Source of the DNA: Balneolaceae bacterium
Lineage (GTDB): Bacteria > Bacteroidota > Rhodothermia > Balneolales > Balneolaceae
Assembly (NCBI GenBank): GCA_034521445.1
Contig: JAXHMM010000006.1
Coordinates: 496,001 to 560,000, forward strand
Reading direction: 5' to 3'
Length of the DNA: 64,000 bases
The position numbers and the translations under genes were made by a program. Under the pieces are notes generated by a model. It did not search any database. It was given only the letters and a program-made list of their open reading frames with translations, and had not been told where the DNA came from. Position 1 is the stretch's first letter; each line of letters starts with the position of its first letter. Of this stretch, positions 44,609 to 63,502 are shown piece after piece.

Positions 44609-44851
44609 AAATCCCTGCCCTGAATTATTTTGCTGTTCTCTTGCCTGCATTTGACGGTTGTTGCCGGTAAACCTACTAAGAAAATGAGTTTTATCAAGAT
44701 GTCCTCCTTCTGAGCTTCCCTGGGGTTCATGGAAAGGTGAGGAGTTAAGCCCGATTTGAATGCCACCCGTGCATTTGATATTGTGCAGGTGAACCTAACG
44801 GAGGCCGCACAGACTGACATTGCGCCGGTCATTCGATTCCAGACAAAAATC

Positions 44852-45772
44852 ATGCTGCTAAAACCTGATTTACTGTCCCAGCTGGCACCCCTCGAACTGA
44901 GGGCGCGCAAAATCGTGGAGGGATTCATCTCCGGCCTCCACAAGAGCCCCTACTACGGTTTCAGCGTGGAGTTTGCTGAGCACCGTCCCTACACACCCGG
45001 CGACGAGATCAAGCATATCGACTGGAAGGTCTATGCCAAGACCGAGCGCTACTACATCAAACAGTACGAGGAGGAGACCAACCTGCGCTGCTATGTAATG
45101 CTCGACACCAGCAGCTCCATGTACTACAAGTATTTCGGGGAGTGGACCAAGCTGCGCTACGGTATTCACTTCGCCGCCGCCCTCATGTACCTGATGCACC
45201 GCCAGCGGGATGCATGCGGACTGGTACCCTTCAGCGACGAGATGGAGTCTTTCATCCCGGCCAAGTCCTCCTACACCCATCTGCGGCAGGTATTCACCAT
45301 GCTGGAACAGCTGCTGGAAAAGGAAGACGAGCAGTCCGCCGGGCAGCGCAAGACCTCTTCGGCCAAGGTGATCCACGAGCTGGCTGAGCGGCTCAACCAC
45401 CGCAGCCTCGTGGTGCTGGTCACCGACTTATTTGAAAACGTGGACGACCACGAGAACCTGATATCCTCCCTCAAGCATCTGCGCCACCGCAAGCACGAGG
45501 TGCTGCTCTTCAACGTGATGGAGAAGAAGAGCGAGCGGGACCTGGACTTTCCTGACCGGCGCTTTCGTATGGAGGATATGGAAACGGGGGCATCCATGGA
45601 GGTACTTCCCGCGCAGGTACGCGAAGACTACAGGAAGAAGGTGGAGGAGTACATCCACCGCTTCAAAATGGCCTGCAGCGAATTCCAGATCGACTTCGAG
45701 CAGATCGACACCCAGCAGGACTTCGACCTGGCACTGCTGGCCTATCTCAACAAGCGCAAGAACCTGGGGTAG
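44852..45772 (+). CDS. DUF58 domain protein (vWA-like)
   Basis: About 306 residues. The DUF58 core is YGFSVEFAEHRPYTPGDEIKHIDWKVYAKTERYYIKQYEEE (written here as family landmarks at about residues 35-75), then CYVMLDTSSSMYY, a MIDAS-like DTSSS in a vWA fold. Such proteins usually partner with MoxR ATPases, but no moxR is in the window. The last 22 codons (IDTQQDFDLALLAYLNKRKNLG) recur as non-coding relics at 48317, 50810 and 53323 between downstream cassettes. The start was placed at 44852, directly before the family N-terminus. Confidence 0.86.
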   Translation: MLLKPDLLSQLAPLELRARKIVEGFISGLHKSPYYGFSVEFAEHRPYTPGDEIKHIDWKVYAKTERYYIKQYEEETNLRCYVMLDTSSSMYYKYFGEWTKLRYGIHFAAALMYLMHRQRDACGLVPFSDEMESFIPAKSSYTHLRQVFTMLEQLLEKEDEQSAGQRKTSSAKVIHELAERLNHRSLVVLVTDLFENVDDHENLISSLKHLRHRKHEVLLFNVMEKKSERDLDFPDRRFRMEDMETGASMEVLPAQVREDYRKKVEEYIHRFKMACSEFQIDFEQIDTQQDFDLALLAYLNKRKNLG

Positions 45773-45869
45773 TGGTTCTGAGCGGCCAAGAGGGGGGCTT
45801 CGGGGTGATTCAAGAATTGGCAATCAGTCCCTGCACACGAAATGAACATCGCCAATTGAGAAAGAAGAA

Positions 45870-47051
45870 TTACTCATTCATAATGATTTTTGTAACACGT
45901 ATGACCGGCACACCGGAGGAGTAGTCCGTGTAGTAGAGCCGGTTTTGATCATCTAAGTGTTTGGGAAAGAAGATAGTGGTTTCCAGCCGGGGTGTGAAGT
46001 CGTCTTCTATGGAAGTGTAGCCGAGATATTTCCCTTCCTTGTCAAGGAGCTCAATAGTGTAGGCATTCTTCTCTCCTTGTGATCCCTCCGCCGTTTGAAC
46101 AAAGTGAAGTACCCACTTGTCGTTTGCCAGCAGTGCTGTGGATCTGAGCCTTATCTGGTATACTATCTGGCTGGTATTTGGAGTCGCACTTGCCGTAACT
46201 AAATTTACTCTATTTTCTCTGTAGGACCTTCTATATTGCCAGTCCAGCATCTCGTAGGAATCTCTGCCTGTAAAATGGCCTTGAACCTCCCGGACCTCCC
46301 CGCTGTTAATGTTCACCAGGTATATGGAACCATCCGTAATTTCGTGGGTGATAGCTAGTATAGAGTCGTTTAGTTTTGCCAAATTATAATCTCCCCACAT
46401 AGCAAACCTGGCTTCCACGGGCTTTTCTTTGTCAAATTGCATATTGTCGTATACGTTAAAAAAGGAACGGATCCTTTCCCAGGAATAGCCATCTATCAGA
46501 TGTACGGGTTTGTCTTGGTAATCTACTGGATCAAGATCATCGGCATATTCGTAAATCCAAGGTGCTGAAATGGAGACACTGGCAAACTGCTCATTCGGCA
46601 GTGGGACTAAATTACTTGCCGTCCACGTTGGATGCTGCAAAGTCTGTGACTTCAAGGAATCTCCAAAATTAAAGAACTTCGTAAGACGCCGTAATCTGCC
46701 ATCATATACAATGAGTTCGTCGTTATTTCCAATAGCCATTGCTGTGATACCAATGAACTCTCCGGGCCCCCTGCCCCGCCTGCCGATATTTTTCAGATAT
46801 TTACCCTCGGGACCGAATACCCGGATGGAATTGTTCATGGTCGCGACATAGATTCGGTTCTCCGAGTCTGTCCGTATGTATCTGGGACCGCCGAACAGGT
46901 ACTCCTTGGGTGCATCCTCTTGATTGCCTATAACGAGCTGCTCCTCGAATGAAACCGAAAGTTCCTGGGCAAGTCCCTGATTTTGTAGGGCTAATAGTGC
47001 TGTGGCAATCAGAGAGAGAATAATTAAGGAATGAATCTTCCAAGGATACAT
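45870..47051 (-). CDS. Exported six-bladed beta-propeller protein, cassette 1
   Basis: A 393-residue protein with an N-terminal signal peptide (hydrophobic 8-28, ending GLAQ) and no lipobox. The body has repeated beta-propeller blades with NRIYVATMNNSIRVFGPEGKYL and the hallmark IGRRGRGPGEF turn, as in Bacteroidota six-bladed propellers of the BF3164/DUF5128 type. Role unknown; the family is often surface or periplasmic. Last gene of cassette 1 (thioredoxin-like, peptide, propeller), all intact here. The C-terminal SSGVPVIRVTKI block is shared by all three copies. Confidence 0.82.
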   Translation of the reverse strand: MYPWKIHSLIILSLIATALLALQNQGLAQELSVSFEEQLVIGNQEDAPKEYLFGGPRYIRTDSENRIYVATMNNSIRVFGPEGKYLKNIGRRGRGPGEFIGITAMAIGNNDELIVYDGRLRRLTKFFNFGDSLKSQTLQHPTWTASNLVPLPNEQFASVSISAPWIYEYADDLDPVDYQDKPVHLIDGYSWERIRSFFNVYDNMQFDKEKPVEARFAMWGDYNLAKLNDSILAITHEITDGSIYLVNINSGEVREVQGHFTGRDSYEMLDWQYRRSYRENRVNLVTASATPNTSQIVYQIRLRSTALLANDKWVLHFVQTAEGSQGEKNAYTIELLDKEGKYLGYTSIEDDFTPRLETTIFFPKHLDDQNRLYYTDYSSGVPVIRVTKIIMNE

Positions 47052-47080
47052 TGGCAGGCCTGGCTTGCATTATTTAGGGA

Positions 47081-47126
47081 AAGCTGAGTCTACTCATTGT
47101 AAATGTTACAATGAGTAGACTAGCTT
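47081..47126 (-). repeat. Intercistronic inverted repeat, cassette 1
   Basis: AGTCTACTCATTGTAA and TTACAATGAGTAGACT form a perfect 16-bp stem around a 3-nt loop, extended by AAGCT/AGCTT across a one-base bulge. It lies between the peptide and propeller genes. There is no T-run, so it looks more like an mRNA processing or 3'-end protection element than a full terminator. A second 8-bp hairpin (GAAAGATC/GATCTTTC) follows the peptide gene at 47146-47168. Confidence 0.8.
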
Positions 47127-47179
47127 CAGGATTATTCTAAATCCAGAAAGATCAACTCATGATCTTTCAATGGATTTGC

Positions 47180-47461
47180 TTACGGGCAATTGTATGCTTC
47201 ACCCCCCGGTCCCAATATAAGCTGGCAATTCAGGGGTGGATCTAAATCGTGATTATAATCACAGGGGTTATAAAATCCCCATGGTTGACCGCCCACCTCG
47301 CAAGCTGCTATACTCCCACAATGGTAACATGGATTGTATTCACTTGGTTCTTCCGGCCCCGATTGCCATGAATAGACATTGGAGACGGTAAACGAAGTCA
47401 TACCGAAGGTAAAGACAAGTGCCGATAGGATTATCAGAGCTTTCGATTTTTTAAATAACAT
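47180..47461 (-). CDS. Small exported six-cysteine peptide, cassette 1
   Basis: A 93-residue protein: Lys-rich start, a hydrophobic leader (about 8-26) ending near SNVYSW, then an acidic core with six cysteines at 45, 48, 54, 67, 79 and 92 (CYHCGS, then ACE, PCD, NCQ, NCP). The pattern implies up to three disulfides. The leader and its NVYS stretch loosely recall the NVEALA-type small peptides found next to propeller genes in Bacteroides, without the NVEALA motif. It lies 23 bp after the thioredoxin-like gene. Function unknown. Confidence 0.75.
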   Translation of the reverse strand: MLFKKSKALIILSALVFTFGMTSFTVSNVYSWQSGPEEPSEYNPCYHCGSIAACEVGGQPWGFYNPCDYNHDLDPPLNCQLILGPGGEAYNCP

Positions 47462-47484
47462 GGCGGTACCTCTTTTGATTTGTA

Positions 47485-48099
47485 TTAGGATGCGCGAGAA
47501 TCCAGAATGGAAGCGAGCTCATTCAGGATGTTCTCTTTATCTTCTACCGGTGTCATAGCTCCTTTGGGTAACTGTACCCTGAACATCACCTGTTCAGCGG
47601 TTTTATCGATCACGATCAGTTGACCGTCGACAGTCTCATTATGGAAAGAAGTAAGCCTTGGCGGCAGAAAGGAAGTGACACTGTACAGTTTTGGGAGCTC
47701 GAAATCTGCGACGAGGGCAAACTGCCGTGCATATTGTTCCGTCTCCCCATGAAACCATATGACCTGGTCCAGTTCCAGGTTGGAAGTGGTGTCGTTCAAC
47801 AATCCTACATATTCATCAACCTCGTTCAGACAATTTCCGCAAGCTGCAGCAGGCATCAGGTACAATGCCATGACCCTCTTTGTTGAATCGCCCACATCGG
47901 TCAGCGAAGGGACATCCTCAGGTGGTTCATTCGGGATTTTAAAGCTATAGGATGAGGTATCCAGTTGATCCTCAGTCTGATAGTAGTAATCGGAATTACT
48001 TGGTTCGGTTGAGTCTGTGGCCGGAATCAGGGAGAGGATGAAAAACACGATTCCCCCGCAACACAATAGAAGTGCGATTATTTTGTCTCTAAATTTCAT
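47485..48099 (-). CDS. Membrane-anchored thioredoxin-like protein, cassette 1
   Basis: A 204-residue protein with one N-terminal transmembrane segment (about 7-26) and an extracytoplasmic domain. A CxxC site (CGNC, 87-90) in MALYLMPAAACGNCLNEVDE sits at the strand-helix junction expected of a thioredoxin fold; LPPRLTSFHNETVDGQLIVIDK follows as the later beta strands. Length and layout fit an anchored thiol oxidoreductase. It is first in the cassette and could form or reshuffle the disulfides of the six-cysteine peptide encoded next (inference). Nearly identical in three copies. Confidence 0.72.
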   Translation of the reverse strand: MKFRDKIIALLLCCGGIVFFILSLIPATDSTEPSNSDYYYQTEDQLDTSSYSFKIPNEPPEDVPSLTDVGDSTKRVMALYLMPAAACGNCLNEVDEYVGLLNDTTSNLELDQVIWFHGETEQYARQFALVADFELPKLYSVTSFLPPRLTSFHNETVDGQLIVIDKTAEQVMFRVQLPKGAMTPVEDKENILNELASILDSRAS

Positions 48100-48128
48100 A
48101 AGGCGAATCTTTGCTTCGCTCTCTCTTA

Positions 48129-48196
48129 ACCCTGATTCAGGGTAAAAAAAATAACCCTATATGCAAGATATTCCTAAATTTACGTAAATATACGTA
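48129..48196 (-). promoter_or_regulatory. Upstream regulatory region of cassette 1
   Basis: Two elements precede the thioredoxin-like gene. A perfect inverted repeat ACCCTGA-T-TCAGGGT lies at 48129-48143. At 48162-48196 a block reads TGCAAGA on the plus strand, then TTTACGTA and TATACGTA starting 10 bp apart. The second block recurs upstream of the peptide gene at 61206, so it is probably a promoter/activator site. No TAnnTTTG box is present. Confidence 0.6.
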
Positions 48197-48316
48197 CTCA
48201 AGTAGTAGGTTGAAGAATGAGGGATAAATGGTGTAACAGAATGAGCTCGAGTAGTTTATGGGGAAGATGCCTGGTAATAAACCCCTTTCAGTAATGACTC
48301 CGGAATAGTTTTTACA

Positions 48317-48385
48317 GACACCCTGCAGGACTTCGACCTGGCCCTGCTGGCCTATCTCAACAAGTGGAAAAACCTGGGGTAATGG
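48317..48385 (+). repeat. DUF58 gene 3'-end relic R1
   Basis: About 68 bp align with the last 22 codons, stop and 2-3 bases after the DUF58 gene (45707-45775), with roughly six differences. The frame still reads TDTLQDFDLALLAYLNKWKNLG and stop. Sequence on both sides is unrelated to DUF58. It separates cassette 1 from cassette 2. Confidence 0.9.
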
Positions 48386-48408
48386 TCAGTGACCGTCGAC
48401 CCATAGAA

Positions 48409-49581
48409 TTACTCTTCCATAACTATTTTAGTAACGCGGATGACGGGTACTCCAGAGGAGTAGTCCGCGTAATAGAGCTGGTTTTGATTGTCCAGGTGCA
48501 TGGCTACAAATACTGGGGAATCATCCTGCCGGGTGGTAAAATCGTCGCGAATGGGAGTGTAGCCAAGATAATTTCCATCCTTGTCAATAAATTCAATATT
48601 GTAGGTAGTGTTATTTCCTTCCGCAGTTTGTACAAAGTGAAGCAACCACTTATTGTTAGCCAGTAATGCTCTAGATCTGAGTTTAATTTGATACACTAAC
48701 GTGCTGGTATTGGGGGTTGCGCTTGCTGTAACCATGTTGTAGCGATTTTCATGATAAGATCTTCTATACTGCCATTCCAGTATCTCGTAGGAGTCATGTC
48801 CCGCAAAGTGGCCTTGGACCTCCCGGACGTACCCGCTCTTAGTATTCACCAGATATATGGAACCGTCTGATATTTTATGTGTAATAGCCAGTGTGGTGTC
48901 GTTAAGTTTTGCCAGTTGATAATCCCCCCCCATGGCAAATCGGGCTTCCACTGGCTCTTCTTTGTCAAACATCATATGGTCATAGACATTAAAAAGGGAA
49001 CGGGTCTTTTCCCAAGAATCACCGTCTATCAAATGTATGAGTCTATCTTTGTAATCAACGAAGTCAATATCCGCAACTTCATAAATCCAAGGGAATTGGA
49101 TTTCAACTGAGGCAAACTGATTATTTGGAAGTGGGACTATATCGCTCCCAGTCCAGTCCGGATGAGTCAAGTTCAGCGACTTCAAGGAATCCCCGAAATT
49201 GTAGAACCAGGTCAGACGCCCCAGCCTGCCATCATATGCAATAAGCTCATCGTTTTTTCCGACAGCTATAGCTGAAATGGATATAAACTCTCCGGGCCCT
49301 TTGCCCCGTCGCCCAATGTTCTTCAGATATTTCCCGTCCGGACTGAATACCCGGATGGAATTATTCATGGTCGTGATATAGATTCGGTTCTCGGAATCGG
49401 TCCGTATGTATCTGGGGCCGCCGAACAGGTATTCTGCCGGTGGGTTATTTTGATTGCCAATTACGAGCTGTTCCTCAAAGGTGACCGATCGCTCTTGGGC
49501 GGCTCCCTGATTTTGTAGGAATAATACTCCTGCAATAATGATACTTAAAATAGTGAAATAACGAATCGTCAAAGAGTACAC
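48409..49581 (-). CDS. Exported six-bladed beta-propeller protein, cassette 2
   Basis: About 390 residues, clearly paralogous to the cassette 1 propeller (same blade order, IGRRGKGPGEF, IYDG-like AYDGRLGRLTWF, C-terminal SSGVPVIRVTKIVMEE) but divergent in most blade surfaces. I place the start at a GTG at 49581, where the signal peptide (TILSIIIAGVLFLQNQGAAQ) matches copy 1; an upstream ATG at 49638 lies inside the intercistronic hairpin and adds an unlike N-terminus. Its upstream peptide gene is frameshifted. Confidence 0.78.
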   Translation of the reverse strand: MYSLTIRYFTILSIIIAGVLFLQNQGAAQERSVTFEEQLVIGNQNNPPAEYLFGGPRYIRTDSENRIYITTMNNSIRVFSPDGKYLKNIGRRGKGPGEFISISAIAVGKNDELIAYDGRLGRLTWFYNFGDSLKSLNLTHPDWTGSDIVPLPNNQFASVEIQFPWIYEVADIDFVDYKDRLIHLIDGDSWEKTRSLFNVYDHMMFDKEEPVEARFAMGGDYQLAKLNDTTLAITHKISDGSIYLVNTKSGYVREVQGHFAGHDSYEILEWQYRRSYHENRYNMVTASATPNTSTLVYQIKLRSRALLANNKWLLHFVQTAEGNNTTYNIEFIDKDGNYLGYTPIRDDFTTRQDDSPVFVAMHLDNQNQLYYADYSSGVPVIRVTKIVMEE

Positions 49582-49620
49582 GACAAGTCTTTTGGCATAT
49601 ATTGAAAAAAAGTAGTTGCA

Positions 49621-49650
49621 CCCACCCATTGCGGACATTCAATGAGTGGG
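49621..49650 (-). repeat. Intercistronic inverted repeat, cassette 2
   Basis: CCCACCCATTG and CAATGAGTGGG form an 11-bp stem with one mismatch (a G-U pair in the minus-strand RNA) around 8 nt. It has the same place as the hairpin of cassette 1. A T7 run follows about 12 nt later. Confidence 0.65.
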
Positions 49651-49677
49651 CGAACTATGAAATTGCGATCAATTAAA

Positions 49678-49954
49678 TTATGGACAATCGGTTAGTCCTT
49701 CATCAGGCCCTAACTCAAGCTGGCAATTTTGAGGCGGGTCTTCTTCGTCGTCATAGTCACAGGGATTGTAGAAACCCCAAGGTTGACCACCCAGCGCACA
49801 AGCTATATAACTTCCACAATGATAACAGGGATTATATTCTCCCGGTGGGTCCGTCTGCCACGGGGTAAACATTGGAGACGGTAAACGAAGTCATACCGAA
49901 GGTAAAGACAAGTGCCGATAGGATTATCAGCGCTTTCGATTTTTTAAATAACAT
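49678..49954 (-). pseudogene. Six-cysteine peptide gene of cassette 2, frameshifted
   Basis: From the ATG at 49954 the leader is nearly identical to copy 1 through SNVY. One extra base in a run of C then shifts the frame. The core (CYHCGSYIACALGGQPWGFY and four further residues-pattern cysteines) continues in the other frame to the stop at 49678 and keeps all six cysteines. Either a recent inactivating insertion or a sequencing error in a homopolymer. Confidence 0.75.
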
Positions 49955-49977
49955 GGCGGTACCTCTTTTGATTTGTG

Positions 49978-50592
49978 TTAGGATGCGCGAGAATCCAGAA
50001 TGGAAGCGAGCTCATTCAGGATGTTCTCTTTATCTTCTACCGGTGTCATAGCTCCTTTGGGTAACTGTACCCTGAACATCACCTGTTCAGCGGTTTTATC
50101 GATCACGATCAGTTGACCGTCGACAGTCTCATTATGGAAAGAAGTAAGCCTTGGCGGCAGAAAGGAAGTGACACTGTACAGTTTTGGGAGCTCGAAATCT
50201 GCGACGAGGGCAAACTGCCGTGCATATTGTTCCGTCTCCCCATGAAACCATATGACCTGGTCCAGTTCCAGGTTGGAAGTGGTGTCGTTCAACAATCCTA
50301 CATATTCATCAACCTCGTTCAGACAATTTCCGCAAGCTGCAGCAGGCATCAGGTACAATGCCATGACCCTCTTTGTTGAATCGCCCACATCGGTCAGCGA
50401 AGGGACATCCTCAGGTGGTTCATTCGGGATTTTAAAGCTATAGGATGAGGTATCCAATTGATCCTCAGTCTGATAGTAGTAATCGGAATTCCTTGGTTCG
50501 GATGAGTCGGTGGCCGGAATCAGGGAGAGGGTGAAAAACACGATTCCCCCGCAACACAATAGAAGTGCGATTATTTTGTCTCTAAATTTCAT
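49978..50592 (-). CDS. Membrane-anchored thioredoxin-like protein, cassette 2
   Basis: Differs from the cassette 1 copy by only three residues (Thr for Ile at about 21, Ser for Thr at 31, Arg for Ser at 34). The transmembrane anchor and CGNC site are intact. Near-identity against divergent neighbours points to recent duplication or gene conversion of this segment. Confidence 0.72.
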   Translation of the reverse strand: MKFRDKIIALLLCCGGIVFFTLSLIPATDSSEPRNSDYYYQTEDQLDTSSYSFKIPNEPPEDVPSLTDVGDSTKRVMALYLMPAAACGNCLNEVDEYVGLLNDTTSNLELDQVIWFHGETEQYARQFALVADFELPKLYSVTSFLPPRLTSFHNETVDGQLIVIDKTAEQVMFRVQLPKGAMTPVEDKENILNELASILDSRAS

Positions 50593-50622
50593 AAGGCGAA
50601 TCTTTTACTTCGCTCTCTCTTA

Positions 50623-50689
50623 ACCCTGATTCAGGGTAAGAAAATAACCCTATATGCAAGATATTCCTAAATTTACGTAATTATACGTA
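50623..50689 (-). promoter_or_regulatory. Upstream regulatory region of cassette 2
   Basis: Same layout as cassette 1: inverted repeat ACCCTGA-T-TCAGGGT at 50623-50637 and, at 50655-50689, TGCAAGA followed by TTTACGTA and TATACGTA with 10-bp spacing. A single base differs between the two half sites. Confidence 0.6.
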
Positions 50690-50809
50690 CTCAAGTAGTA
50701 GGTTGAAGAATGAGGGATAAATGGTGTAACAGAATGAGCTCGAGTGGTTTATGGGGATGATGCCTGGTAATAAACCGCTTTCAGTAATGACTCCGGAATA
50801 GTTTTTACA

Positions 50810-50878
50810 GACACCCTGCAGGACTTCGACCTAGCCCTGCTGGCCTATCTCAACAAGCGGAAAAATCTGGGGTAATGG
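50810..50878 (+). repeat. DUF58 gene 3'-end relic R2
   Basis: Second copy of the DUF58 tail; reads TDTLQDFDLALLAYLNKRKNLG and stop. It differs from R1 by a few bases and restores the CGG codon for Arg. Separates cassette 2 from cassette 3. Confidence 0.9.
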
Positions 50879-50901
50879 TCAGTGACCGTCGACCCATATA
50901 A

Positions 50902-52064
50902 TTACTCTTCCATAACTATTTTAGTAACGCGGATGACGGGTACTCCGGAGGAGTAGTCTACATAGTAGAGCTGGTCTAGATCATCCAAGTGTTTGGGATA
51001 GAATTTCTGTTTTAGATCCATAATAGTTGTAAAATCATCATTTATAGGGATATATCCGAGGTAGTTTCCTCCCTGGTCAATAAACTCCATATAAGATGAA
51101 CTGGTACCTCCATTCGCTGTTTGAACAAAGTTGAGTCCCCACTTGTCATTGGTCAGCAAAGCTCGAGACTCAAGTTTTTTTTGAAAGACCACTTGTTGAT
51201 TTCCTCCTAATATTACAATTCCAACTCGTTCATCTGCATATACAAACTTATTATCCAATCCAGCACTACATAGGGTTCCATGCCTGTAAAGCGTTCGCAG
51301 TACCGTTGACTACGCTGTTTTTCAAATTCAAAAGGTATATTGAACCATCATAGATTTGGTTGGTGAGGGCGATGGTTGAATCGTTTAGCATCCCTATTCT
51401 ATAACCGCCTCTTGAGAAATGAGCCTCTATTGGCATATTCATATCAAACATATGGTTTGATACCTTGTAATATGAGCGAATACGCTTTGAAAAACTGTTA
51501 TCTACTATATGCAATAAAGAATCACCAAGATTAAGGGCATCATATTCACCTGCATATTGATATATCCAGGCTTGTTCAGGGAAGCGGTTACATACCGTTC
51601 CCTATCCTTTATAGGGAATATCTGTGCTCTCCCATCCAAGCAGGGTGTGAGGCGTTACGGGACTCCAAGGAATCACCTAAATTATAGAATATTGAAACGC
51701 GTCTTGATCTACCATCATAAATGATAAGTTCATCGTGAATGCCAATTGCCATACCTGATATAGCAATGAATTCTCCTGGCCCTCTTCCTCGTCTGCCTAC
51801 CGTTTTTAGATACTTGCCATCTGGATCATATATCCGGATGGTGTTGTTCATGGTTGCTACATAGATATTATACTTAGAGTCTGTTTCAATGAACTTGGGC
51901 CCGCCGAATAGGTATTCCTTGGGTGCACTCTGTTGATCGCCAAGGACTAATTGCTCGTCAAAATTCACCGTTAACTCTTGGGCAAATCCGGGCTGATTGG
52001 AGCTTAATATTACTATCAAGATAAAATTACAGGCTACAATAAGACGGAATTGCCAAGGACTCAT
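50902..52064 (-). pseudogene. Beta-propeller gene of cassette 3, multiply frameshifted
   Basis: Three frames together cover a full propeller. An N-terminal part (52064 to about 51609) has signal peptide, GRRGRGPGEF and IYDGRSRRVSIFYN. A middle part (about 51514-51266) has SIYLLNLKN. A C-terminal part (51258-50902) ends SSGVPVIRVTKIVMEE. At least two frameshifts and a stop separate them, so no functional product is expected. It is the most diverged of the three propellers. Confidence 0.85.
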
Positions 52065-52148
52065 TGATATTTCTCAGTGTGATTTTTAAGATTCAATCGT
52101 TTCTCTTTTTCTGGTGGGTTCTTGGTGAAGAGTTATAGCATGTCCTAT

Positions 52149-52168
52149 AAAAACAGGGGGATGTTTTT
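52149..52168 (-). repeat. Intercistronic hairpin, cassette 3
   Basis: AAAAACA and TGTTTTT form a 7-bp stem just after the peptide stop; on the minus strand the second arm ends in TTTTT, so this one resembles a weak terminator. The position matches the inverted repeats of the other cassettes. Confidence 0.55.
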
Positions 52169-52179
52169 CCTAACTCCGA

Positions 52180-52467
52180 TTATGGACAGTCCACAAGTTC
52201 ATCATCACCGTTTCCAACTCCCCAAAATATACAGTACTCTGGTGTTCCATATTCACTTGGTTGTATCGTACAATCCGAGTTGTAAACGCCATAAGGTTGG
52301 CCGCCAGTAAGACATGCTGAATAACTTCCACAGTGGTAACAAGGGTCAGAAGTCTCCGGGTCCTCTATTTGCCATGAATAGACATTGGAGACGGTAAACG
52401 AAGTCAGTCCGAATGTAAAGACCAGCGCGGAAAGGATGACCAGCGCTTTCGATTTTTTAAATAACAT
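52180..52467 (-). CDS. Small exported six-cysteine peptide, cassette 3
   Basis: A 95-residue protein. The leader (1-32) is almost identical to copy 1, ending SNVYSWQ. The core keeps CYHCGS and six cysteines (43, 46, 52, 66, 79, 94), but the loops between the later cysteines are different in length and sequence (TIQPSEYGTPEY, IFWGVGNGDDELVD). Conserved leader with diversified core is typical of polymorphic secreted peptides. Its own propeller is a pseudogene. Confidence 0.75.
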   Translation of the reverse strand: MLFKKSKALVILSALVFTFGLTSFTVSNVYSWQIEDPETSDPCYHCGSYSACLTGGQPYGVYNSDCTIQPSEYGTPEYCIFWGVGNGDDELVDCP

Positions 52468-52490
52468 GGCGGTACCTCTTTTGATTTGTG

Positions 52491-53105
52491 TTAGGATGCG
52501 CGAGAATCCAGAATGGAAGCGAGCTCATTCAGGATGTTCTCTTTATCTTCTACCGGTGTCATAGCTCCTTTGGGTAACTGTACCCTGAACATCACCTGTT
52601 CAGCGGTTTTATCGATCACGATCAGTTGACCGTCGACAGTCTCATTATGGAAAGAAGTAAGCCTTGGCGGCAGAAAGGAAGTGACACTGTACAGTTTTGG
52701 GAGCTCGAAATCTGCTACGAGGGCAAACTGCCGTGCATATTGTTCCGTCTCCCCATGAAACCTTATGACCTGGTCCAGTTCCAGGTTGGAAGTGGTGTCG
52801 TTCAACAATCCTACATATTCATCAACCTCGTTCAGACAATTTCCGCAAGCTGCAGCAGGCATCAGGTACAATGCCATGACCCTCTTTGTTGAATCGCCCA
52901 CATCGGTCAGCGAAGGGACATCCTCAGGTGGTTCATTCGGGATTTTAAAGCTATAGGATGAGGTATCCAGTTGATCCTCAGTCTGATAGTAGTAATCGGA
53001 ATTCCTTGGTTCGGATGAGTCGGTGGCCGGAATCAGGGAGAGGATGAAAAACACGATTCCCCCGCAACACAATAGAAGTGCGATTATTTTGTCTCTAAAT
53101 TTCAT
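52491..53105 (-). CDS. Membrane-anchored thioredoxin-like protein, cassette 3
   Basis: Differs from copy 2 at two positions (Ile at about 21 and Arg for Trp in the QVIRFH segment). CGNC and the anchor are intact. Third near-identical copy. Confidence 0.72.
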   Translation of the reverse strand: MKFRDKIIALLLCCGGIVFFILSLIPATDSSEPRNSDYYYQTEDQLDTSSYSFKIPNEPPEDVPSLTDVGDSTKRVMALYLMPAAACGNCLNEVDEYVGLLNDTTSNLELDQVIRFHGETEQYARQFALVADFELPKLYSVTSFLPPRLTSFHNETVDGQLIVIDKTAEQVMFRVQLPKGAMTPVEDKENILNELASILDSRAS

Positions 53106-53322: not shown

Positions 53323-53390
53323 GACACCCTGCAGGACTTCGACCTAGCCCTGCTGGCCTATCTCAACAAGCGGAAAAATCTGGGATAGGG
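53323..53390 (+). repeat. DUF58 gene 3'-end relic R3
   Basis: Third copy of the DUF58 tail, ending in a TAG stop at 53386-53388 followed by GGTGATTCAA, the same short string that lies about 30 bp after the real DUF58 gene (near 45803). It marks the outer edge of the cassette array, next to the toxin-antitoxin operon. Confidence 0.88.
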
Positions 53391-53394
53391 TGAT

Positions 53395-53760
53395 TCAACC
53401 CGGTAGATCGGATAGCTTGATACGGTCGTAGGATCCTCTCTTATCCTCGGGGTGTGGCTCAATGCCCAGAATGGTAATTTCTTTTCGATTTGGGCCATAC
53501 GTCCAGAAGATACGCCTGGCTTTCTGACCCTGGTCGAGGTACGATTGCCATATCTTCATATCGTACTTGTTGCTGAGAGCCTCAATCTCATGAGTTCGCA
53601 GGCCGGGATGACGTGGGTTGTTACTCAGGAACCGAAGGGTTTTGGCAAGTTTGTTGAACAATTCTATCTCCTGAGTGTCCATCTCACCCGTTTTTTTCTT
53701 ATCAAGAAGAGAGTCCCAGAAATTTTTCATTCCCGGGACTCCCATGCGTATGGCAAACAT
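53395..53760 (-). CDS. RelE/ParE-like toxin-family protein
   Basis: A 121-residue basic protein. The N-terminal helices (KNFWDSLLDKKKTGEMDTQEI) and LSNNPRHPGLRTHEI lead to a beta core KIWQSYLDQGQKARRIFWTYGPNRKEITILGIEPHPED, listed here as landmarks of the Bacteroidota toxin-like family with a RelE/YoeB-like fold. Ribosome-dependent mRNA cleavage is plausible but not shown. The start at 53760 has GGAG at good spacing; M11 is an alternative. It lies 12 bp after the antitoxin gene. Confidence 0.75.
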   Translation of the reverse strand: MFAIRMGVPGMKNFWDSLLDKKKTGEMDTQEIELFNKLAKTLRFLSNNPRHPGLRTHEIEALSNKYDMKIWQSYLDQGQKARRIFWTYGPNRKEITILGIEPHPEDKRGSYDRIKLSDLPG

Positions 53761-53772
53761 GATTGCTCCAGG

Positions 53773-54030
53773 TTAGTCGAGGAGCTCCTCCAGTTCATCC
53801 ATGTCGATCGGATCCGATACCTCTCCTTCTTTATACTTGGTTATGGCTTTGTCCATCATTTCCAGCGTATTTCGAGAAATTTCGTCCGGGTGAACCAGCT
53901 CGCGCGGACTCAGTTCGATGGTACCGTCCTCATGCTCGGTAACATGGTAGTACGTAGTCCGTGCCCCTCGAATGGTTATTCGTTTTTTGGAGTCCAACTT
54001 TGCGTTGTACTCCCTCACAAGGTTGTCCAT
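53773..54030 (-). CDS. AbrB/SpoVT-like antitoxin
   Basis: About 85 residues: KLDSKKRITIRG and TYYHVTEHEDGTIELSPREL form a swapped-hairpin-like AbrB DNA-binding domain, followed by an acidic C-terminal tail (SDPIDMDELEELLD) that could wrap the toxin. The start was set at 54030, not 54123, because AGGAGG stands 5-6 bp upstream, a rare strong Shine-Dalgarno site for this genome. First gene of the pair. Confidence 0.78.
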   Translation of the reverse strand: MDNLVREYNAKLDSKKRITIRGARTTYYHVTEHEDGTIELSPRELVHPDEISRNTLEMMDKAITKYKEGEVSDPIDMDELEELLD

Positions 54031-54108
54031 AATGGCCTCCTGAACAGCGTGTCTGTAATTATTATAGTGCTGCCCTCTTTGTCTGAGGTTGCTTTTAATG
54101 TGGGAATA

Positions 54109-54120
54109 TGGGAATTCCCA
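54109..54120. promoter_or_regulatory. Palindromic operator candidate of the toxin-antitoxin operon
   Basis: TGGGAATTCCCA is a perfect 12-bp palindrome about 80 bp upstream of the antitoxin start, with a further TGGGAAT half site at 54101. Autorepression by the AbrB-like antitoxin is the simplest reading. Confidence 0.45.
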
Positions 54121-54171
54121 CACAAATATTACGTAGATATCCTGAATAATTCAACCCTGAGGCAAACAGGT

Positions 54172-55906: not shown

Positions 55907-57304
55907 ATGTCCATCCGATCCAAACTGGCCTGGACCTTTATCCTGCTGCTTATTTTTGGCATTACCGCCATCAGCAGCTACTCCATTGTGTTCATTCGGA
56001 ACTACATGCTGGAAGAGGGCAAACGCGAGATGGAGCGTGAAACCCGCTGGCTGGCCGTCACCGTGGAGAACATGGCAGACGACAGCGCATTCACACGCCA
56101 CCTGCGGGAGGCGGCCGATATCTCCGGCTACCGGCTGGCTGTCTACGGGGAGGACGGCGCGTTGCTTTTCGCCTGGCCCGACAGCACCTCGCCGCATCAC
56201 CCCCGGCGACTGGATACCGGTCTCCTGGCCAGCCTGGAGGCGCGCGACGGCATCCCCCTGCTGCCCGAGCGTCCTGATTCCGAGTACCTGGTCAGCATGG
56301 TACACCTGGATACCAGCGCCAATACCGCCCGATATATCCGTGCGAGCCAGCTCAAGGACGACCTCTACGCCCCTATACGCACCATCCGCTGGATCATCTA
56401 CTACGGCATGTTTATCAGTATAGGATTGGTCATCCTGGTCAGCATCCTGATGGCGCGCTACCTCACCCGCCCCATCACCCGTATCAAGAACGCCGCCCAG
56501 GAGATTGCTTCGGGCGATACCAGCCGGCAGATCGACCTGGAACGCGGGGACGAATTCGGCACCCTGGCCGACTCTCTTAACCGCATGGCCTCACGCCTGC
56601 GGGCCGATACCGCACAGATTAAGCAGTTCGCCGAAAAGCAGCGGCAGTTTTTCGGGGATATCACCCACGAAATCCGCAATCCCCTGCACACCATCACCGG
56701 CGCCCTGGAGATGCTGGAGATGGAGGATCTGCCGGAGGACGAGCGTCGCAGATACCTGCGCTCCGCCCGCAAACAGACCGAGCGCATCTCCCGGCTGTTC
56801 AAGGATCTACTCACGTTGCAGCGCTACGACTCCGACGAGAAGTTTATCGAGCGCAAAACTTTCGACCTGTCCATGATAGCCGAGCACATGCTGGAGTGGT
56901 ACGGGGATGCCGCCGCCGAGAAGGGCATCGACCTGCATGTGGATACCCACGAATGCCGTGCGGTCGGCGATCCCGGTAAGATCGAGCAGGTGATTGACAA
57001 CCTGGTCTCCAACGCCGTCAAGTACACCTCGGAGGGTACCATTACGATGAGCTACTCGCGGGAAGACGACGAGGTGGTTGTAGAGGTTGAGGACACCGGC
57101 ATAGGTATCTCCGAGGAGCACCTGGAACGGCTTTTCGACCGATTCTACCGCACCGACAAGGCGCGCTCGCGCGACAAGGGAGGCACCGGACTGGGCCTGG
57201 CCGTGGTCAAGAGCATCCTGGGCGCCCACGGCTCCGAGATCGAGGTGGAGAGCGAGCCGGGAAGGGGCACCAGCTTTTGGTTCAGTCTGCCGGCTTCCGG
57301 CTAA
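55907..57304 (+). CDS. Sensor histidine kinase
   Basis: A 465-residue membrane kinase: transmembrane helix at about 8-28, a periplasmic sensor region to about 160, a second helix (about 163-185), HAMP, dimerisation domain with phospho-accepting His in FFGDITHEIRNPLH, and HATPase with N-box (VIDNLVSNAVKYT), DTGIGIS and GGTGLGLAVV. The extreme 3' end (VESEPGRGTSFWFSLP) has a diverged relic at 59690-59746. Partner of the upstream response regulator. Confidence 0.95.
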   Translation: MSIRSKLAWTFILLLIFGITAISSYSIVFIRNYMLEEGKREMERETRWLAVTVENMADDSAFTRHLREAADISGYRLAVYGEDGALLFAWPDSTSPHHPRRLDTGLLASLEARDGIPLLPERPDSEYLVSMVHLDTSANTARYIRASQLKDDLYAPIRTIRWIIYYGMFISIGLVILVSILMARYLTRPITRIKNAAQEIASGDTSRQIDLERGDEFGTLADSLNRMASRLRADTAQIKQFAEKQRQFFGDITHEIRNPLHTITGALEMLEMEDLPEDERRRYLRSARKQTERISRLFKDLLTLQRYDSDEKFIERKTFDLSMIAEHMLEWYGDAAAEKGIDLHVDTHECRAVGDPGKIEQVIDNLVSNAVKYTSEGTITMSYSREDDEVVVEVEDTGIGISEEHLERLFDRFYRTDKARSRDKGGTGLGLAVVKSILGAHGSEIEVESEPGRGTSFWFSLPASG

Positions 57305-57386: not shown

Positions 57387-57887
57387 ATGACTGCCTACGC
57401 TGGTCGTACACACCGATTCCTTTTTGAAATCCCGCCGACACTTCTGCTGGGGCTGCTGTTGCTGTTGACAGGCTGTGCGCCCACGGCGGAGGTAAGGGAC
57501 GAGTGGGCGGATAAGGTGACATCGGGAACGTACGGTTGGATCAATTTTAATACCGGGGAGGTCAAAAATCCGGATCCCTATCCCCCTTCCCGCATCGATT
57601 ATCTCAGGGGCAATCTCTATCCCGAGTATTCCCAGCAATGCCTGCAGCAGTTGAGAAGCTTGACCGGAGCAGTAACCGTTGAGATCCACTTTCTGCTCAC
57701 GGAGCAGGGTCACCCGGGCCAGTTCATCACCATGTCTGATACTCCCGCTACCTGTAACAGGGATATCATCGATGCACTCCGCACCCTTTCCTTCCAGCCC
57801 GGAGTGCGGGATGGAGAGCCGGTCGCCTCGGTAGGCGAATTTGCCCTGCGACTAACTCCCGGGGGAGGGTTTAAGATCGACCAGTAA
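57387..57887 (+). CDS. TonB C-terminal-domain-like lipoprotein
   Basis: A 166-residue protein with signal peptide and lipobox (LLLTGCAP). The C-terminal part (about 85-160) resembles a TonB C-terminal beta-alpha-beta unit: GAVTVEIHFLLTEQGHPGQF, a Cys, then DIIDALRTLSFQPGVRDGEPV. Without a TonB-type N-terminal helix anchor it is more likely a TonB-like partner than an energy transducer. It lies 82 bp after the kinase and converges with the cassette at 58 kb. Confidence 0.7.
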   Translation: MTAYAGRTHRFLFEIPPTLLLGLLLLLTGCAPTAEVRDEWADKVTSGTYGWINFNTGEVKNPDPYPPSRIDYLRGNLYPEYSQQCLQQLRSLTGAVTVEIHFLLTEQGHPGQFITMSDTPATCNRDIIDALRTLSFQPGVRDGEPVASVGEFALRLTPGGGFKIDQ

Positions 57888-57972: not shown

Positions 57973-59061
57973 TTAAAAACTCATAATGACAATGTCATTG
58001 TCTCCATCAGTATGGTCTATGCCGACCAGATGGTTTTCATGTATTTCATAAATATTAAACAGGGGGGGGACCAGGATTTTTCCCATCTTTTTTGAATGCC
58101 TGTCTACCCTCAATATGATACCATAGTTTTTATTCGCTGTGAATAAAGTGTAGTAAAAATGATCTTCGGAAGGAATAAAATTTATGAAAAACGGGAGTTC
58201 CATACCCTCCGCCAACACTTCAGGATCTTGTACATTACTCCCTTGAATTACCGATTTAAGAAAATTAATCTCTTCTTCGCCTGCCATCGGCTTAGGATAA
58301 CCCGATAAATTAAATTCTTCAGATGATCCATTCTGGGTGTTTACCGTGGTTATAGAAAGAGTTGCAGAGTTCGAATAGTAAAATTGTACATCTTTCATTT
58401 TCCATATTGTACTTGCTCCAAGGGGATTTTCTCTTCTAACCCCATTTGACTCAAATGTGTCGCTTCCCGGCATATCAAACTGGTGTCGCTGCAGGTGGAA
58501 ATCATCATCCAGTCGATATACCTCAATATCATTATTTTCCCCACTGGCGATCTGAACGCTCTTAAACACTCCCAGATATCCATCATCTGTCTCATACAGA
58601 GCATTTAAATTACGGGAGTCATAATCAGGCAGTCTTATTTCACGCTCTGGCTCAAATCCACCTTCCAGGATTGAGTAAATGGATACTACTCCAGAACGGC
58701 CATCATAGACATGAAGTCGATTATCTCTCCCAATATGGATTTGATTTATGGCAAAAAACTCATTCGGGCCGCCTCCTGACCCTCCGATACTATCCAAAAG
58801 GGCACCATTGAGCTCCATTAAATTTAAAGTCCAGTTAGAAGCATCAACTACCACCATCCGTCCCTCACCATCCATAGTCAGATCCAGGGGTGAATACACA
58901 TTCGTGGTGGAAGTTTCAATTCGAGTACTATCTTGAAGAATGATCTCTTCAACTTCCGAGATGAATTGATCAAACGAATGCTCATTTTTGTCTGGATCGT
59001 TGGAACAGGAGATCGCAATTAACCCAATTGCAAGATATTTAATGTATTTAGAATACTTCAT
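57973..59061 (-). CDS. Six-bladed beta-propeller lipoprotein, cassette 4
   Basis: About 362 residues with a lipobox (GLIAISC), so membrane-anchored, unlike the propellers of cassettes 1-3. Blades include MVVVDASNWTLNLMELNG, SIGGSGGGPNEFF (the GxGPxEF turn) and RLHVYDGRSGVVSIYSI. The start at 59061 was chosen because it yields a normal signal; the longer frame starts inside an 18-bp inverted repeat. Encoded after the four-cysteine peptide gene at 59128-59352. Confidence 0.8.
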   Translation of the reverse strand: MKYSKYIKYLAIGLIAISCSNDPDKNEHSFDQFISEVEEIILQDSTRIETSTTNVYSPLDLTMDGEGRMVVVDASNWTLNLMELNGALLDSIGGSGGGPNEFFAINQIHIGRDNRLHVYDGRSGVVSIYSILEGGFEPEREIRLPDYDSRNLNALYETDDGYLGVFKSVQIASGENNDIEVYRLDDDFHLQRHQFDMPGSDTFESNGVRRENPLGASTIWKMKDVQFYYSNSATLSITTVNTQNGSSEEFNLSGYPKPMAGEEEINFLKSVIQGSNVQDPEVLAEGMELPFFINFIPSEDHFYYTLFTANKNYGIILRVDRHSKKMGKILVPPLFNIYEIHENHLVGIDHTDGDNDIVIMSF

Positions 59062-59070
59062 ATTTAAAAC

Positions 59071-59127: not shown

Positions 59128-59352
59128 TTAATTTTCACCAGGTTGTTCTATACAGATGTCATATGAGGCTTGACACGCGTTGTCCCATACTGCGTGTTCA
59201 GTGGCTTGGAATAACCAATGGTAAGGATTACCAGCTTCACACTGGTCAAGGATCACTTGGCACATTTCTTCGGAGGCCTCAGTAGAATTTGTGATTCCCA
59301 CAATCAAAACTGGGGTCATCATTAATGTGAGCATGATAGTTTTTATTTTCAT
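59128..59352 (-). CDS. Small exported four-cysteine peptide, cassette 4
   Basis: A 74-residue protein: signal peptide (about 1-27, ending EAS) and a mature core of about 47 residues with two CX6C pairs (31/38 and 60/67: CQVILDQC and CQASYDIC). This suggests two disulfides bracketing two helices. Unrelated in sequence to the six-cysteine peptides of cassettes 1-3, but in the same position relative to a propeller gene. The 59353-59427 gap is AT-rich with no clear promoter. Confidence 0.7.
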   Translation of the reverse strand: MKIKTIMLTLMMTPVLIVGITNSTEASEEMCQVILDQCEAGNPYHWLFQATEHAVWDNACQASYDICIEQPGEN

Positions 59353-59427: not shown

Positions 59428-59700
59428 CTACTCATCATATTGAGTGTTCCTAGTTTTCAGGTTTTTAACTATTCCAGAACGGCCATCATAGATATAGAGT
59501 CGATTATCTCTCCCAATATGGATTTGATTTATGGCAAAAAACTCATTCGGGCCGCCTCCTGACCCTCCGATACTATCCAAAAGGGCACCATTGAGCTCCA
59601 TTAAATTTAAAGTCCAGTTAGAAGCATCAACTACCACCATCCGTCTCTCACCATCCATAGTCAGATCCAGGGGTGAATACACATTCGTGGTGGAGAGCAA
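59428..59700 (-). pseudogene. Fragment of a beta-propeller gene (N-terminal blades)
   Basis: About 226 bp at 59472-59697 are nearly identical to 58691-58916 of the cassette 4 propeller and encode TTNVYSPLDLTMDGERRMV through YDGRSGIV. Its 5' end is fused to a histidine-kinase tail relic through a short shared GGTGGA string; its 3' end runs into unrelated sequence and a stop. Remnant of another cassette. Confidence 0.85.
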
Positions 59701-59746
59701 GCCCGGCCGGGGGATGTGCTTCTGGTTCAGCCTGCCGGGATACTAA
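59690..59746 (+). repeat. Relic of a histidine-kinase gene 3' end
   Basis: The plus strand encodes VESKPGRGMCFWFSLPGY and stop, matching the end of the kinase at 57304 (VESEPGRGTSFWFSLPASG) at protein level but diverged at DNA level. Its stop overlaps the stop of the convergent cassette 5 propeller. Same arrangement as the DUF58 relics of the other locus. Confidence 0.8.
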
Positions 59747-60825
59747 TGTTCCTGTCGGTCAAACACATATATAGCAGGATGTGATATGCTATTTAGATAA
59801 ACTCGTCCATCCGATTGAGAAATAAACGACATCGAAATCGACTCGTTACCTTTGGTTCTGTCCCGGATATCATATCTGCCCTCTACTTCGTAATTATTAT
59901 TGGTATCAATGATAGTCAATGTATTGTCGATGATTGCATAGAGATGCCCGCTTTCTGAGAGTTTGAAATCGGTGATATATCTTCGTACCGCGCCTTCCAT
60001 CCGGCCAATATTATCTACTGGGATTGCTTCAGGATTGTCTATGTCGCTAAAGGAGTCAGCGGTAAACTGGATGGTCGAGGTCAGATTTAGATTATCGTCG
60101 AACAGAAATAGATAGGGGAATCCGGGATAAGCGGCCATAGTCACACCGTTGGTAGCATCTATTTGGAATGTATTATAACCTGATGGCTCTTTGCCCATAG
60201 GAATCAATCTTGGAAGGAGTGAATCGTATTCAGCATACGGCTCTGCATTATTATATACCTGGGTCAGGTTTTTCGCACCGGACCTGGTTGATGCAAAAAT
60301 GTAGTTATTAGAGGCAGCCAGGTCGTCAAGTCCCACATATATATTGAATGATTTTATATAGTTGAAAGTATCATATTCATATTGATTGACTCGTGATAGT
60401 GACCCGTCTGCAATAAAAATGTGCTCCTCACTGGAAAAGATAGCACTTACACTCTCAAATTCTCCAGGCCCTCTTCCTTTCCGTCCAATCGCATCAATTA
60501 TTGTATTTGAAGTGTCGGCGATTAATACTGTCGGTTGCCGTAGATCGGTGATGTACACCCTCTCACCCTTTGCAAAAGTATTCGTCGGTGAGGTCAACAG
60601 GAGATCCGCATCTACTGAATCCTGCTGAATGATGTTTTCTGGACCAAGGGAAATGTCCGTAATCGGAATCTGATCCAAATTGATTGTATTTAAACTTGTT
60701 TCGTCAATTAGAGTCTTCAATACTTCTGACTCTGTGCCGAATTGCATGGAAGAATTACTTTCGCAACTGACGATAAAAGTTATACTCAGGATGCAGAAAA
60801 GGATGCTTTTAAACTGAATAGTCAT
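59743..60825 (-). CDS. Six-bladed beta-propeller lipoprotein, cassette 5
   Basis: About 360 residues with a lipobox signal (SITFIVSC). Propeller blades include RVYITDLRQPTVLIAD, AIGRKGRGPGEFESV and HIFIADGSLSRVNQYEYD. Divergent from the other propellers but with the same GPGEF turn. An upstream ATG at 60837 is possible. Preceded by the six-cysteine peptide gene at 60931-61206 and an inverted repeat. Its stop touches the kinase relic. Confidence 0.8.
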   Translation of the reverse strand: MTIQFKSILFCILSITFIVSCESNSSMQFGTESEVLKTLIDETSLNTINLDQIPITDISLGPENIIQQDSVDADLLLTSPTNTFAKGERVYITDLRQPTVLIADTSNTIIDAIGRKGRGPGEFESVSAIFSSEEHIFIADGSLSRVNQYEYDTFNYIKSFNIYVGLDDLAASNNYIFASTRSGAKNLTQVYNNAEPYAEYDSLLPRLIPMGKEPSGYNTFQIDATNGVTMAAYPGFPYLFLFDDNLNLTSTIQFTADSFSDIDNPEAIPVDNIGRMEGAVRRYITDFKLSESGHLYAIIDNTLTIIDTNNNYEVEGRYDIRDRTKGNESISMSFISQSDGRVYLNSISHPAIYVFDRQEH

Positions 60826-60872
60826 GATGCGGACCATTTGATAAAAAACTCAAATATAATTTACTAAATAGA

Positions 60873-60930: not shown

Positions 60931-61206
60931 CTAGTTAATCATGGGAACATTACATGTTTCGACACCATCACAAATGGTGCCGGTGAAATCTCCCTGCCCC
61001 TCAGCTACATCTATTAGCCCGTCTCCACAATCCATATTCATATCCCAATTTGTATCAGTCTGTATGAATACAACTTCGCAGCTTTCCGATGCATCACAAT
61101 AGGTCATACACATTGGATCACCAGGTTGATACGCTTCGATTGGAGTTGTCACTAAAAAAAGAGCTATAAGTGCAATTGCATTCAGAAATTTTGTCTTGGT
61201 AGTCAT
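60931..61206 (-). CDS. Small exported six-cysteine peptide, cassette 5
   Basis: A 91-residue protein with signal peptide (about 1-25, ending IEA) and an acidic core with cysteines at 33, 37, 43, 60, 79 and 85 (CMTYC, SCE, DCG, ICD, TCN). The spacing differs from the CYHCGS family of cassettes 1-3. It is followed by the inverted repeat and propeller 5. The promoter region shares the TGCAAGA/TTTACGTA block with cassettes 1-3. Confidence 0.72.
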   Translation of the reverse strand: MTTKTKFLNAIALIALFLVTTPIEAYQPGDPMCMTYCDASESCEVVFIQTDTNWDMNMDCGDGLIDVAEGQGDFTGTICDGVETCNVPMIN

Positions 61207-62383: not shown

Positions 62384-63502
62384 ATGCCGTCTGACGAGAT
62401 ACGCCTTGGAATTGTGCTGATGAACCTGGGGGGACCCACGGGCGAGGACCATGTGCGGCCGTTTTTGTACAACCTGTTTCGAGACGAGGACATCATAAAG
62501 CTGGGAGGGGGACGCGTGCAGGAGCTCTTTGCGCGCGTCATCGCCAAATTCCGCGCCCCCTCCGTCCGGGAGGACTACGAAGAGATCAACGGCTGTCCCA
62601 AGGGCTGTACGGGCAACAGGCACTGCCTCAATCGCCAGAACAGCGTGGTGTCCACTTGCTGCTCGCCCATCAACGGACTGACCGAGCGGCAGCGCAGGGG
62701 ATTGGAAAAGCATTTCAGGAAGGAGCATCCCGACCTGGACGTGTCCGTCTACACATGCATGCGCTATTGGATTCCCTTCGCCGATCAGATCATGGACGAC
62801 ATGGTGGACGACGGCATCACTCACGCCGTGATGCTTCCCCTCTACCCGCAGTTTTCGTGGACCACCACGGGCTCCAGTTTCCGAGACTGGGAAAACCATC
62901 GGCGGGAGAAATTCGGCAGCCTTGAGAACACCCCCTGGAAGGAGTACCAGGTGAAGAACTACCACCGGAATCCCTATTATCTGGAAGCCCTCAACGCCCG
63001 CATCGATGAGGCCATGGAGGAGCTGGAACCGGAGACGCGCGAGAAGACTCACCTGGTCTTCAGCGCACACGGCACGCCCAAAAAGGAGGTGCGCAGCGGA
63101 GATCCCTACACCACGGAGATCGAGCAGACCATGGAGGCCATTATGGAGATGCGCGGCCTGCGGGAGGACTATTGGATCGGCTACCAGTCGAAGGTAGGGC
63201 CCGGTGAGTGGACCCAGCCGAATACCGCTGAGCTGGTGGAGCGTCAGGTACAGTACGGTATCCGAAATTTCGTGCTGGTGCCCGTCGCCTTTGTGACCGA
63301 CCATATAGAAACGCTCTACGAGTTGGGCGTGGAGCTGCCGGAGGATCTTGAGGAGGAGGGCTATCACTTTGAGAACATCAAGGTCATGCCTGGCATCAAC
63401 GACCATCCGAAATTTATCTGGGCGCTGGCCGACGAGACCCTCAAGAAAGTGGGATACCTGTTTGACGAAATCCAAGAGAAGCCGGTTAATCCTGGGTCAT
63501 GA
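62384..63502 (+). CDS. hemH: Ferrochelatase with internal cysteine cluster
   Basis: A 372-residue enzyme inserting Fe2+ into protoporphyrin IX, the last step of protoheme synthesis. Family motifs: LMNLGGPTGEDHVRPFL at the N-terminus, PQFSWTTTGS in the middle, the catalytic His in FSAHGTPKKEV, and YQSKVGPGEWTQP. Between REDYEEI and SPINGLT, where most ferrochelatases have a short GGGSP turn, an insert carries cysteines at 71, 75, 81, 92 and 93, suggesting an internal [2Fe-2S] site. It overlaps hemA by 4 bp. Confidence 0.94.
   Translation: MPSDEIRLGIVLMNLGGPTGEDHVRPFLYNLFRDEDIIKLGGGRVQELFARVIAKFRAPSVREDYEEINGCPKGCTGNRHCLNRQNSVVSTCCSPINGLTERQRRGLEKHFRKEHPDLDVSVYTCMRYWIPFADQIMDDMVDDGITHAVMLPLYPQFSWTTTGSSFRDWENHRREKFGSLENTPWKEYQVKNYHRNPYYLEALNARIDEAMEELEPETREKTHLVFSAHGTPKKEVRSGDPYTTEIEQTMEAIMEMRGLREDYWIGYQSKVGPGEWTQPNTAELVERQVQYGIRNFVLVPVAFVTDHIETLYELGVELPEDLEEEGYHFENIKVMPGINDHPKFIWALADETLKKVGYLFDEIQEKPVNPGS

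Follow-up and report, generated by a model that had tools for sequence, protein, structure and literature searches.

Cassettes lodged between a gene and the cut-off end of another version of it suggest arrival on foreign DNA in Balneolaceae

Natural genomes seldom make it easy to see how small gene modules that lack a recombinase of their own reach new places in the chromosome. The question is raised by two loci in the window, by which we mean the whole stretch of DNA analysed (64,000 nucleotides of contig JAXHMM010000006.1 of a Balneolaceae bacterium, positions 496,001 to 560,000). At each locus, cassettes containing a propeller gene and a peptide gene lie between an intact gene and a second, cut-off 3' end of the same gene. 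The initial annotation, made from the letters alone, took the two examples to suggest that gene ends undergo insertion or duplication in one common way. Where do the cut-off ends, here called relics, come from, and how did the cassettes come to lie in front of them?

Layout of the two loci

Locus 2 extends from a sensor histidine kinase gene to a gene that we take, from its sequence, to be hemH:

55907..57304, plus strand: intact sensor histidine kinase gene (Pfam HATPase_c/HisKA/HAMP); the relic corresponds to its final ~60 bp (57240-57304)
57387..57887, plus strand: small gene within the inserted stretch, weak similarity to TonB_C (Pfam E 0.005, below cut-off)
57973..59064, minus strand: cassette 4 propeller gene (DUF5128; Pfam PF17170, E 1.9e-12)
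59128..59352, minus strand: cassette 4 peptide gene, 74 aa (open reading frame; no Pfam match)
59468..59694, minus strand: propeller 4 fragment lacking both ends, 97.8% identical to 58685-58911 over 227 nt
59689..59694, no strand: GGTGGA, the microhomology where propeller fragment and kinase tail join (sequence)
59690..59746, plus strand: relic, the 3' end of a kinase-gene allele through its stop, 57 bp
59743..60837, minus strand: cassette 5 propeller gene (PF17170, E 2.5e-10); its stop overlaps that of the relic
60931..61206, minus strand: cassette 5 peptide gene, 91 aa (open reading frame; no Pfam match)
62384..63502, plus strand: presumed hemH, directly after the kinase in relatives (by their gene order)

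The annotated join of a propeller 4 fragment through GGTGGA to a kinase end is confirmed, and in a self-search the kinase tail at 57240-57293 matches 59685-59738 at 79.6% over 54 nt (E 1.2e-5); the same hexamer also occurs in propeller 4 and in the intact kinase gene. The relic reads VESKPGRGMCFWFSLPGY*, in frame to the stop, with 13 of 16 residues identical to the intact kinase tail, and its stop (59744-59746, plus strand) overlaps the stop of propeller 5 (59743-59745, minus strand), as had been noted at first. The propeller fragment lacks both its ends, which makes the tract an incomplete repeat, spaced at 783 bp, that the kinase tail subsequently cut. A search of the own genome with 59440-59760 found two places only, the query itself and propeller 4, so the relic did not come from a second copy in the assembly. 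The idea that its source might be found among the kinases of the genome did not hold for the tails that could be compared: none of those extractable, by a pattern that did not catch every tail, was closer than the neighbouring kinase. Propellers 1, 4 and 5 score 40-48 bits, above the Pfam cut-off for PF17170 of 22.9 bits.

At locus 1 the neighbouring gene belongs to the DUF58 family:

45707..45776, plus strand: 3' end of the DUF58 gene (gene 44756-45772; PF01882; repeat family D7)
45870..53105, minus strand: three cassettes in tandem, each with propeller, peptide and 204-aa gene; the propeller of the third is broken into several open reading frames
48317..48386, plus strand: DUF58 relic, first copy, 91%
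50810..50879, plus strand: DUF58 relic, second copy, 90%; 5 synonymous and 1 non-synonymous codon change
53323..53388, plus strand: DUF58 relic, third copy, 89%, with a different flank adjoining

The duplicated 3' end described here by the initial annotation is confirmed and recurs three times, at 48317, 50810 and 53323; the order is end-cassette-end-cassette-end-cassette-end with near-identical spacers. Tandem amplification at this locus is clear, with cassette parts 96-99% alike. The three copies of the 204-aa gene (47485-48099, 49978-50592 and 52491-53105) share 99% protein identity, and propellers 1 and 2 only 73%; to judge from the sequences, it looks as if propeller and peptide diversify and the remainder is homogenised. 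In the third cassette the propeller is split into three open reading frames (50902-52064), and the peptide and 204-aa genes are open. Directly past the last relic lie two small minus-strand genes with no Pfam match (53395-54123), which by their look may be a toxin-antitoxin pair.

The two sites were compared with those of Balneolaceae relatives including Fodinibius. Where hemH falls inside the fetched flank (26 of 38 loci, some of the loci apparently being one genome counted twice), the gap between kinase and hemH is 101-338 bp in 19 cases and 799-1476 bp in 7; in the window it is 5,079 bp. The gap between the DUF58 gene and the following SDR gene is about 36-1,626 bp in five of nine relative loci (both genes in reach), compared with 8.4 kb in the window. 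Because the kinase leads directly to hemH, and the DUF58 gene directly to its next gene, in these relatives, both loci are insertions; the empty sites all come from related species rather than from the window's own. The TonB-like gene has no counterpart between kinase and hemH in the nine relatives compared.

A survey of propeller regions

We scanned 101 regions around propeller genes (the window, 20 from its own genome, 60 from relatives and 20 further ones) for truncated ends of neighbouring genes, applying one threshold to test and control regions alike: 80% or more amino-acid identity across 16 residues or more. Displaced 3' ends of non-propeller genes with a cassette between were found at six loci: those of the DUF58 and kinase genes, gltA and tex (both in genome G017), gcvP (G083) and an HhH gene (G103), with families assigned by Pfam. 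The tex relic overlaps a spurious 108-aa open reading frame. Two mirror cases involve displaced 5' ends of RND transporter genes. In the first (L221), a TolB-like propeller, below the Pfam cut-off, lies between gene and relic; in the second (L308), the intervening gene has no Pfam match and the segment lies at the edge of a propeller array. Beyond the two examples first described, five other genomes have the arrangement, as the proposal of the initial annotation required: gltA, tex, gcvP and HhH have 3' relics and the two RND genes 5' relics. The rule is thus wider than 3' ends.

Forty control regions (three genomes, 0.80 Mb, 533 genes) contained no relic of equal strength, and in 95 of the 101 cassette regions a 3' relic of this kind, from a gene other than a propeller, was absent. 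Counted by regions, the excess (6/101 against 0/40) falls short of significance (P 0.18); the numbers by themselves are weak evidence, and the argument rests on the layout. Propellers with a non-propeller downstream neighbour are arranged tail to tail with it in 48 of 97 cases, compared with 216 of 631 for other genes (P 0.004), a modest bias of propellers towards gene 3' ends.

Several candidates were discarded. A 61-bp repeat (L103) reads as terminator-like and lies in a stretch with transposase-like genes, and at L180 several FtsX-like paralogues make fragments ambiguous. Head matches were dropped at L172 for internal repeats, at L179 for want of an intervening propeller and at L196, where signal peptides are apparently shared. 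Relics of propeller genes themselves, at L175, L192 and L221, were set apart as array rearrangement.

PF17170 matches number 34 in the 3.2 Mb of the window's own genome and 39, scattered, in G017; genome G034 has many in one array (around C1:1.19-1.24 Mb). Elsewhere in the own genome, a 2.15-kb unit is repeated about three times in tandem at 92-95% identity beside another propeller (C5:452000-468000, L108), and contigs C2 and C17 (L112, L113) share 13.3 kb at 99.8% identity with a propeller on both, a large duplication or an assembly duplicate.

The gcvP site could be followed across 23 congeners with gcvP in reach. A propeller also stands right after gcvP in three of them (G084, G088 and G099), and in twelve the genes that lie downstream in G083 are in reach and a propeller is lacking. 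The three propellers are 41-53% identical to that of G083, and gcvP itself is about 80% identical; the gcvP relic was not seen in the readable sequence of these three genomes, two of which end early at contig ends. In a tree of 157 propellers, the four post-gcvP propellers fall within a clade of eight (support 0.84), the other members of which have different neighbours, such as D-ala-D-ala ligase with RecQ (L218) and pyrimidine phosphorylase (L293). Similarly, the cassette at gltA in G017 has its nearest relative in G065, not far from a Bac_export_1 gene. Closely related cassettes thus stand beside different genes in different genomes, from which it follows that cassettes change place. Their G+C content is about 8-20 points lower than that of their hosts (0.44 and 0.40 vs 0.605; 0.325 and 0.345 vs 0.427; 0.373 vs 0.477).

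The relics as ends of other alleles

At each of the eight loci the relic is homologous to the gene end; the differences are mainly synonymous at seven, and at gltA there are none over 93 codons. Pooled over five loci, 31 codons differ synonymously and 10 non-synonymously, against a synonymous share of 0.20-0.27 expected from random change. The individual counts, synonymous before non-synonymous, are 5/1 for DUF58 (one of its three copies), 6/3 for the kinase, 3/2 for tex, 12/1 for gcvP and 5/3 for HhH, the excess at tex alone being not significant (P 0.07). The 5' relics behave in the same way (7 synonymous against 1, a stop, at L221; 34 against 11 at L308). The gcvP relic is 83% identical to the gcvP of its own genome and at most 73% to that of any of the 23 congeners.

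These patterns bear on another explanation, local tandem duplication of gene end and cassette followed by decay of the extra copy. Amplification in tandem has clearly taken place at locus 1, and arrays contain partial propeller repeats (L175, L192 and L221). Unselected decay, however, should alter amino acids. The differences in the kinase relic are mostly synonymous, which marks it as the end of a different allele that was once functional rather than as a decayed local copy. At the same locus the propeller fragment shares 98% identity with its source and the attached kinase tail differs by about 20%, so the divergence of the tail predates the junction. As an account of the relics we therefore consider local duplication improbable. 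Of the shared mode of insertion or duplication proposed at the outset, the insertion half is supported: relics that are ends of different alleles are better explained by insertion of foreign DNA.

Relics that represent other alleles of the same gene could also arise if strains of one species had been merged during assembly, and the own genome, in 18 contigs, is listed with 3.84% contamination. The same layout is nevertheless present in six genomes, among them G017 (listed as 100% complete with 1% contamination), and an overlap of 6 bp is too short to mislead an assembler. We regard an artefact of this kind as very improbable.

The HhH relic is a mosaic, in which 3 of 46 codons are changed and then all of the last 5 (P 2.4e-5, for a split chosen post hoc). 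This is as expected if a homologous crossover took place inside the tail.

Joining, routes of arrival and known systems

The positions at which relics start vary from about 57 to about 290 bp from the stop. By eye, eight rows from six loci contain no shared sequence at the junctions, and no recombinase domain was found in the cassette proteins scanned. Microhomology can be read at one junction only, the GGTGGA of locus 2, where the joint falls inside the broken propeller gene; the chance of an overlap of at least 6 bp at a random junction is about 0.0013.

Cassettes placed between an intact gene and the cut-off end of another version of it suggest arrival on foreign DNA with that gene as foothold. 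Our preferred reading, on balance a probable one, is that incoming cassette DNA underwent homologous recombination at one gene end and illegitimate joining at its other side, so that the resident end was displaced. Foreign DNA from a related bacterium, consisting of a gene end and a cassette, would recombine homologously with the resident copy of the gene, and its other end, without homology, would join by microhomology just inside the resident gene end. The product would be an intact (chimeric) gene, the cassette and the truncated resident end, the relic being the end displaced when the cassette arrived. Locus 2 would previously have consisted of the kinase followed by propeller 5; the incoming DNA would have carried a kinase end and the TonB-like gene together with propeller 4, peptide 4 and a portion of another propeller 4. 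It would have broken within this second propeller, which would then have been fused at GGTGGA with the end of the resident kinase. The layout, the allelic nature of the relics, the empty sites and the recurrence at unrelated genes are observed; what we infer in this scheme is the direction, meaning which end of the pair is foreign, how the joint was made and by what route the DNA entered. Compared with 14 typed tails of relatives, the kinase relic has a mean of 9.9 identities in 16 and the present tail 10.9, which leaves the direction undecided. A ComEC domain is present in four of four genomes, but 10 of the 14 control genomes have one as well, E. coli among them; being so common in controls, it says little about natural transformation.

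The DNA might instead have come as a circle of gene end and cassette that had been excised from a different genome when gene end and relic recombined there, and that then integrated by one homologous crossover. The resulting layout would perpetuate itself, would place the relic on the far side as required, and would explain the array at locus 1 with its alternating ends and cassettes and near-identical spacers. This route leaves the broken propeller at the 6-bp overlap of locus 2 unexplained, and the first end-cassette-end arrangement would have to arise in another way; we think it unlikely on the whole. Alternatively, gene ends could be attachment sites for a tyrosine recombinase acting in trans, the cassette bringing its own version of the gene end and pushing the old one away. 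Some prophages integrate in protein genes in this manner. The outcome would be the same, an intact gene with a recoded end, a small insert and the displaced original end, and the mosaic HhH tail would also fit a core followed by a replaced end. Against it stand the lack of a recombinase among the cassette proteins scanned, the variety of targets (six unrelated 3' ends and the RND 5' ends, with relics of ~57 to 290 bp) and the insert at locus 2, which terminates within a broken propeller gene; site-specific integration would seem an unlikely explanation.

If joining of incoming DNA as in our preferred reading is accepted, displaced gene ends are direct traces of single acquisitions, each with its foothold gene, the allele of the other parent and a readable joint. 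They could serve to count and date acquisitions and to test DNA uptake in the phylum, and they account for short gene ends, kinase-like or enzyme-like, which might otherwise be annotated as pseudogenes or small genes. That a family of secreted-peptide/propeller cassettes spreads in Balneolaceae without its own recombinase, using whichever housekeeping gene end it carries as homology handle, and that its landings can leave a datable allelic scar, is a proposition for which we see the chances as evenly balanced.

Several known systems offer comparisons. When a prophage or island integrates into a protein-coding gene at its 3' end (icd, for instance), the element's version replaces the gene end and the old end is displaced; the cassettes differ in that no integrase was found with them, in their many different targets and in their use of 5' ends too. 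Integrons resemble the cassette loci in that small cassettes are inserted in order and older ones pushed away, but here neither an integrase nor a common recombination site was seen and insertion is beside housekeeping genes. Literature searches found nothing useful on a precedent of the integrase type and no paper on the peptide family NVEALA. At T6SS effector-immunity and Rhs loci, incoming modules displace older 3' parts and leave strings of orphan ends, for which homology-facilitated illegitimate recombination (HFIR) was proposed (PMC5361080). In those arrays, as described there, the displaced part comes from the same system and is maybe kept for immunity, whereas at the cassette loci what was displaced belongs to a bystander housekeeping gene, and the remnant looks inert. 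In HFIR itself, incoming DNA is inserted at one end by homology and at the other by illegitimate joining (PMC3240628). The likeness is that one border lies inside a tract homologous between insert and resident DNA; the difference is that HFIR is known from experiments with competent bacteria and conjugation, and the events considered here are read from sequence, repeatedly and for one cassette family. The cassette loci appear to fit this known process, proposed here for peptide/propeller cassettes at the ends of housekeeping genes.
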